A stretch of 46,707 nt of DNA, from positions 1 through 46,707 of the forward strand of contig JAJFIP010000392.1 in NCBI GenBank assembly GCA_021774875.1. Reading direction: 5' to 3'. How positions within the stretch are numbered: position 1 is the stretch's first letter; every line of letters begins with the position of its first letter. The notes beneath the pieces were generated by a model. The model saw only the letters and a list, made by a program, of their open reading frames with translations. It did no database searches and had not been told where the DNA came from. This DNA comes from Emcibacter sp. (GTDB lineage Bacteria > Pseudomonadota > Alphaproteobacteria > Sphingomonadales > Emcibacteraceae). A program made the position numbers and the translations under genes. Below, in pieces: positions 25,101 through 26,289 of the stretch.

Positions 25101-25731
25101 GTTCTGCAAGCTCCTCGGCCACTTTTGCCAATGCCTTTTTATCACCTGCTGCCAGTGCCGCTTCATGTTGGGCCAGCAATCCCTTGCGGTAGGCATTTTC
25201 CCGCACCTGCGCGAATTGATTGGCCTCGCGGAAACTGTTGCGAATATCTTGTTGTAATTTTTGGGCGGCCTTGCGAAATGCTTCCGGGTCTGTGGGCAGA
25301 ATTTTATTCCCCTTGGCTATGGCCTTTAGCTCATCCATGCGGGCGATCTGTTCCGCCGTGGGGTTCTTAACAGTGTTGGATAAAATACGATGGGCCGCCT
25401 TTGCTGCCTGACGCGGTTCTTCCATACATTTGAAGCGAACTTGCGGTGGGCACCAATTGGCCGGGTCCATATGATGTAGACCCTTTTTCATCATATCAGT
25501 GTTGAAACCGTGCATATCATTGACCACGGCGGCTTCAATCTTTCTCGTGACAAGAGCAACTTCATCGTCAAGTTCGGCAATACGGGCCAGCTTGCGCTGA
25601 CGCAGATCATCAGGCAGGTCCACATCATCCAGTGCTTCCGCCAATGCGACCCTTTCCGATTTCAGACCTTCCAGTTTGCCTCCCGGCTTGACGACACCTT
25701 CAATCCATTCCTGCCCGCCAACCGAGCCCAC
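22189..25731 (-). CDS. Very large coiled-coil/acidic-linker protein, probable downstream part of an interrupted gene
   Basis: 1180 residues from GTG 25731. Parts in order: Lys/Glu/Ala-rich helices (about 1-320); a hydrophobic Gly/Ala-rich segment (about 355-470, e.g. WVGLGNAIAVGTVIAIGEAT); long coiled coils (about 490-730); a strongly acidic linker (EEEEDGEEEGEEG onward, about 750-800); and a Cys-containing beta-rich C-terminal region (about 805-1180). It has no signal peptide, although its many Cys residues and exported neighbours suggest it is secreted. The start is weak. The frame continues upstream without a break in coding character until a TAA at 25768-25770, which ends the signal-peptide-bearing gene in the same frame. 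No enzymatic motif is recognised. Family unknown. Confidence 0.75.
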   Translation of the reverse strand: MGSVGGQEWIEGVVKPGGKLEGLKSERVALAEALDDVDLPDDLRQRKLARIAELDDEVALVTRKIEAAVVNDMHGFNTDMMKKGLHHMDPANWCPPQVRFKCMEEPRQAAKAAHRILSNTVKNPTAEQIARMDELKAIAKGNKILPTDPEAFRKAAQKLQQDIRNSFREANQFAQVRENAYRKGLLAQHEAALAAGDKKALAKVAEELAEQREAAKRIRVTLQQVLDDPHMPHARQTAHEWMTGEKLRKVEVTGQAAIYEVIEEGADGTKVLRQISEAELNKTTNDFIRKNQIREIDQGLPGRPRLSSFAQADDVNILRRGARRVKGTIAELGTLGMLQVGYASYLGAEGAVEVMNEAGEYQIPGTDDFLNMDVSREEWVGLGNAIAVGTVIAIGEATGVAQVVRDVAAEDTTGGQVVAGAKGGCYVLLSCFGYDAGKALFDAAAKQEIEDAQRQGRAASQLGVLANIVNQRGAVRLGVDVSFAVGGWLKNRLSQMGGFVYAEMENLQAQFRADQAANKVMLRLMYGGYDQLITNIAELRVTTQILKDAWRRGTDNMDKAIRGRDDLAVYASLLESRKLGDRCIEAGEAGDKMRAVWEKELADYAATLNKALLAAYQVLGRAQTTSSVFADAAGLGQLISRQAKIQQSLARRFERLASATDDDPQIITLQAEVSAQRDPVDQSLMAEFTRTAREISTEVQDIIKQLEALGQQKIPECEPTVEEEEDGEEEGEEGDTNDPTSGDLAEDTDDEDDTEEDDQSDSEDSLTPVSGAPLVLRLVKVSEPVLSEATKKADCKLTRFGNGAGAVKTCGVAPNGGTAVSAGLTRFPTEIIVGQPFEVEFSAKWASAFPNYKPCEEQEHKDDAARASCFSQGVMFKASRHTVDISRIYPKPNSDFQARVKVKFIPEKCTATGFYGKACNDPEIIALQESGEHVPLRYSYQVESSLPLSKNDKNAFYLFHSKSLAVNEDGFVILEATENQSKKDRERVAQTARELKNVESLFGFQLRLWAGADELATAYYMPVPVGGEYLASATAHSHPGKLAAPKAVPKYLGVIMETKGSGYKLYTDPPGGKTVWGLRVDGWSRRTLWVKWGQDPAKIAQAHYDKLSSYPDCLKSGLTVMLGMPNVWDSGPQVKILNVGPFLNSGELMDAIKAGEIDLGSEWEYAEDGEKLWEDGRCEE

Positions 25732-25767
25732 TTTATCTTCGAAGCGAGCGGCCCGCTCCAGTGCCCT

Positions 25768-26289
25768 TTATTCTTCCGCCGAGCCCGGTTTATAGGTTAT
25801 CGTTTCTTCACTAAAACCGGTATAATCCAGTTCCTTGACTGAAAAATCTGTATCCGTATTCCATTCAACCGTATAGCCCATGTCCTGAAACTCTTTGGCG
25901 GCAGCTTTTGAGTCCGCGAGTGTGGCATAGGTATCATCAATGTCGGTCAAAATACCTGATGATCCCTGTGAATGGGGCGGCGTGCCGCTTGGTACGGCTT
26001 TATTCAGTCCTTTGTCCCTAAGCCGCTGATTAACATATTCAACCACTTTTTTCCGACTGCCTTTTTCAAGGTCAATCGCGGCATCCTTAGCCATTTTCAG
26101 ATCATCGACCGTAAGAATTTGCCGCTGTTGCCACATTTCCACACGCAGGACATGAACATCGACAAAAGCTGGCTGAAGCAGGGCCGCTGTCGGCGGCGTT
26201 TGGGCGAAAATAGGACCGACAACCGCCAGCAGTAATAATGCAACCGCGGGGACACGGAATTGCCTGATATGTCGTTTAAGCCACATCAT
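25768..26289 (-). CDS. Exported 173-aa protein, probable N-terminal part of the large protein
   Basis: A signal peptide (VPAVALLLLAVVGPIFAQ) is followed by helices and then SSGILTDIDDTYATLADSKA with DMGYTVEWNTDTDFSVKELD. DIDDT resembles both the HAD-type DxDxT motif and a nucleotidyltransferase Asp pair; neither can be proved by eye. It ends GSAEE-TAA, and the next 12 codons of the same frame (RALERAARFEDK) lead straight into the 1180-aa protein. It overlaps the upstream TPR gene by four bases (ATGA). It is either the intact first part of a two-gene pair or the severed leader of one exported protein. Confidence 0.78.
   Translation of the reverse strand: MMWLKRHIRQFRVPAVALLLLAVVGPIFAQTPPTAALLQPAFVDVHVLRVEMWQQRQILTVDDLKMAKDAAIDLEKGSRKKVVEYVNQRLRDKGLNKAVPSGTPPHSQGSSGILTDIDDTYATLADSKAAAKEFQDMGYTVEWNTDTDFSVKELDYTGFSEETITYKPGSAEE

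Follow-up and report, generated by a model that had tools for sequence, protein, structure and literature searches.

Does an in-frame TAA on a contig of Emcibacter sp. separate two genes, or does it interrupt a single one? The window analysed here, a stretch of 46,707 nucleotides (contig JAJFIP010000392.1, assembly GCA_021774875.1), comes from a draft genome of 3.9 Mb in 398 contigs with 1.81% contamination. A first-pass annotation, made from the sequence alone, had proposed that one exported protein of about 1366 residues (173 residues, 1 stop position, 12 linker codons and 1180 residues) is split by the TAA. It left a recent nonsense mutation, a sequencing error, stop-codon readthrough and a genuine two-gene split as explanations, and suggested aligning homologues. 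This alignment was carried out and an unbroken homologue was found, which points to a lesion or a readthrough site.

Layout of the split gene

The coordinates confirm that the 173-aa ORF (26289..25768, stop included) and the 1180-aa ORF (25731..22189) lie in the same frame on the minus strand, with one TAA and 12 codons between them (Table 1). The order at the junction is TAA (25770..25768), the linker RALERAARFEDK (25767..25732) and the GTG (25731..25729). By inspection, a classical signal peptide opens the 173-aa part, with the n-region KRHIRQFR, the hydrophobic stretch VPAVALLLLAVVG and then FA-Q. This signal peptide is found on the 5' part only. The 1180-aa part has, as had been noted before, no signal peptide and a GTG start that is preceded by a weak Shine-Dalgarno-like stretch (GAAGAT).

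Table 1. Features of the split gene, its operon and the neighbouring integrated element (window coordinates)
Feature	Coordinates	Strand	Remark
5' part of split gene, 173 aa, signal peptide and N-terminal region	25771..26289	minus	corresponds to residues 1-173 in the alignment with the unbroken homologue
Interrupting in-frame TAA	25768..25770	minus	sense codon differing by one base in the relative
12-codon linker RALERAARFEDK	25732..25767	minus	protein-identical to the relative, one synonymous change; coding sequence, not intergenic spacer
3' part of split gene, 1180 aa from internal GTG	22189..25731	minus	in the relative this GTG is an ordinary valine codon
Upstream gene, exported TPR protein	26286..27053	minus	4-base overlap with the ATG of the split gene; also upstream in L003
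Downstream gene, exported PASTA / EGF-like protein	20055..22238	minus	overlaps 3' end of split gene
Downstream gene, ankyrin-repeat protein with apparent signal peptide	18184..20028	minus	
Integrated element, 6.3 kb at tRNA-Phe	11561-17899		
Full tRNA-Phe	11531-11605		
Tyrosine integrase beside tRNA-Phe	11642-12736		
525-aa protein without Pfam match, in element	14767-16344		
HTH protein, in element	16601-17704		
Perfect 45-bp repeat of tRNA 3' end, bounds element	17855-17899		

An unbroken homologue in the nearest relative

Of 196 relatives searched, a single one, from the same genus, has the protein, and there a frame of 1367 residues is open without any stop. About 85,000 species genomes, scanned separately, returned one locus, a MAG contig of Emcibacter sp. 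OFTM17. This contig agrees with the first hit in length (12,575) and in its alignment to the window. The handles L002, L003 and G013 thus all stand for one contig of the relative, and hence we count one independent homologue and not two. A gene interrupted by a nonsense mutation is expected to have an unbroken orthologue in a relative, and here the relative's gene runs unbroken at 4351..8454 of L003, in the same operon; its product shares about 89% identity with the split protein. At the position of the TAA the relative carries a sense codon separated from TAA by one base change; the linker is identical in 12 of 12 residues. Judged by this alignment, the shared frame of the two ORFs is not a matter of chance: the relative's gene is open here, and the residues that flank this point are the same in its product. 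Outside the genus, no homologue was found in 385 genomes of the class, and the 398 genomes of the phylum gave a single 42-residue match at chance level (E 0.0055). Plasmids and viral contigs held no homologue either.

Selection across the junction

In the codon comparison with the relative, dN/dS is 0.027 for codons 71-173, 0.016 for codons 101-200, which span the stop, and 0.17 for the 1180-residue 3' part. The linker differs by 1 synonymous and 0 non-synonymous changes, in agreement with the earlier reading of these 12 codons as coding sequence. Both sides and the linker have evolved as coding DNA (dN/dS 0.016-0.17), as expected of a gene that was interrupted by a nonsense mutation. The low dN/dS on both sides, together with the conservation of the linker, indicates that the junction evolved as one coding frame, and from the dN/dS pattern it follows that selection acted across it until recently. 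A separate observation concerns the first 70 or so residues (26080-26289, minus strand, versus L003 4351-4560), which comprise the signal peptide and a variable start. This region diverges far faster than the next 100 residues (dN/dS 0.34 vs 0.03), and both lie upstream of the stop.

The same comparison bears on a genuine two-gene arrangement, in which a small exported protein and a separate 1180-residue protein would be coupled by termination and restart at the GTG. The GTG is located 36 bases past the stop, and synonymous change is low over codons 151-195, as an internal start site might give. However, many windows were scanned in this single comparison, and the signal from this stretch, which falls in the lowest 4% or so of the 40-codon windows, deserves little weight. 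The GTG lacks a good ribosome-binding site, the linker's 12 codons change in the manner of protein-coding sequence, and the 1180-aa part carries no signal peptide although its partners appear to be exported. Homologues that consistently form two genes, the second with a conserved start near 25731, named beforehand as the pattern that would speak for two genes, were looked for, and the only homologue found is one gene. Since this homologue is unbroken and the junction evolved as coding sequence, we consider it very unlikely that there are truly two genes.

Decoding of UAA and other interruptions in the genome

Programmed or suppressor-driven readthrough of the UAA, yielding regulated amounts of the full-length exported protein, would explain why both halves are constrained and why the linker is conserved as protein. 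The same constraint and conservation are, however, equally expected for a recent lesion. In known stop-codon readthrough genes the stop also lies between two conserved coding parts in one frame, and in this respect the split gene is alike. It differs in that the stop is not conserved: the only homologue has a sense codon, and hence readthrough is not a conserved trait. Furthermore, no UAA-reading anticodon occurs in the 38 tRNA genes found (anticodons from ARAGORN); the 'taa' anticodon belongs to a tRNA-Leu and reads UUA. Neither these tRNAs nor the terminator usage revealed a suppressor tRNA or a reassigned stop in the genome. In the sampled part of the genome, 102 genes share their C-terminus with an orthologue, and TAA, in fact the commonest conserved terminator, ends 53 of them. 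Thus, TAA is a working terminator here. We regard readthrough as even less probable than two genes. A lineage-specific readthrough or stop-restart switch, in which the UAA would act as a gate that sets the amount of the large exported protein, appears the most remote of all readings.

For the survey of interruptions, about 0.63 Mb here and 1.42 Mb in the relative were compared. Of the relative's genes, 115 had an orthologue in the sampled sequence (40,055 aligned residues); in these pairs the split gene alone has an internal stop, and no frameshifts were seen. The interruption therefore looks isolated and local and does not seem to reflect a genome-wide recoding. In the reverse direction, 3 of 112 genes were flagged with an internal stop in the relative, at least one of them beside a start-site difference. 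These are the L024, L066 and L048 orthologues in L103, L144 and L110, candidate pseudogenes or start differences in the relative.

No decay is visible beyond the stop of the split gene. This is explained equally well by a very recent mutation and by a sequence error. In a draft assembly of metagenome type, the TAA might be an error of the sequence or consensus, or the allele of a minority strain, with the gene of the organism intact. The many contigs and the contamination of the assembly fit such an origin, and two halves that look fully constrained and carry no secondary lesions are what one expects if nothing is broken. On the other hand, the change is a base substitution that keeps the length and not an indel, and assembly errors are not common here, the other orthologues being free of internal stops and frameshifts. 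We consider an error or strain allele a realistic, though clearly less probable, alternative to a nonsense mutation.

The operon and its neighbourhood

The split gene belongs to an operon-like set of four genes at 18184-27053, encoding the TPR protein, the large protein, the PASTA/EGF-like protein and the ankyrin protein. Their order is the same in the relative, and the neighbouring genes stay open. Among the genomes of the genus that were searched, only 2 carry the operon, and the PASTA/EGF partner is present in the same 2 of 16 genus genomes. This partner has five PASTA matches, like the PASTA-domain envelope proteins (PknB-type kinases and class B PBPs). In contrast to these it has EGF-like matches and no kinase or transpeptidase domain match, and the likeness is that of the partner and not of the split protein. 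The signal peptides and the partner domains suggest that the operon likely has a role in an envelope-associated complex.

The large protein, searched as 1367 residues against Pfam, NCBIfam, PADLOC, PHROGs and PDB sequences, matched no family and gave sub-threshold or weak local matches only, two of the latter in PHROGs. Fold prediction for the halves of the intact protein of the relative reached mean pLDDT values of 34.8 and 45.2, and with so shallow an alignment the models were unusable for a fold search. The literature search returned nothing bearing on the locus.

A 6.3-kb element with a tyrosine integrase is inserted nearby and also carries two Cro/C1-type HTH genes. We rejected a mobile-element origin of the operon, which lies beyond the end of the element's attachment repeats at 17899.

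Discussion

We have asked whether the TAA separates or interrupts. The best explanation is a recent single-base nonsense mutation at codon 174, which probably interrupts one gene whose ancestral product, about 1367 residues long, was secreted or periplasmic. An error of the consensus or a mixture of strains ranks next; two genes and readthrough are poorly supported. Of the four options offered at the outset, the nonsense mutation and the sequencing error thus remain; readthrough is disfavoured, and the two-gene split is very unlikely.

That the relative's frame is unbroken, that the codons differ by one base and that selection acted on both sides is read from the aligned sequences themselves. 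That the TAA base is truly present in the organism is presumed from a draft assembly. Since there is one independent homologue only, the direction of the change rests on the openness of the frame and on codon selection and not on an outgroup.

In the favoured scenario of a nonsense mutation, a base change at codon 174 of the ancestral single gene would have become fixed, or would be carried by the sampled strain. Translation would stop at the TAA and, once the signal peptide is cleaved, leave a short exported fragment of about 145 residues. If the GTG allowed a weak restart, the resulting C-terminal fragment would not be exported. This genome has most likely lost the function of the large protein, and the product would be non-functional.

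Such an arrangement resembles the pseudogenes and nonsense alleles described in bacteria: a single in-frame stop, constrained sequence to either side of it, an orthologue that is intact in a close relative, and an operon whose other genes are open. We found no difference that would set the split gene apart from these, the stop here being known from one draft assembly. The split gene most likely reflects either a sequence error or an inactivating mutation of the ordinary kind, and not a special decoding.

The main use of the finding lies in annotation. Automatic gene calling will report the locus as two hypothetical proteins with no relation to each other, and the 1180-aa protein, called alone, would wrongly look cytoplasmic. 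Read as one interrupted gene, the locus encodes a large protein without a known family, and a four-gene exported operon emerges that is common to two genomes of the genus.
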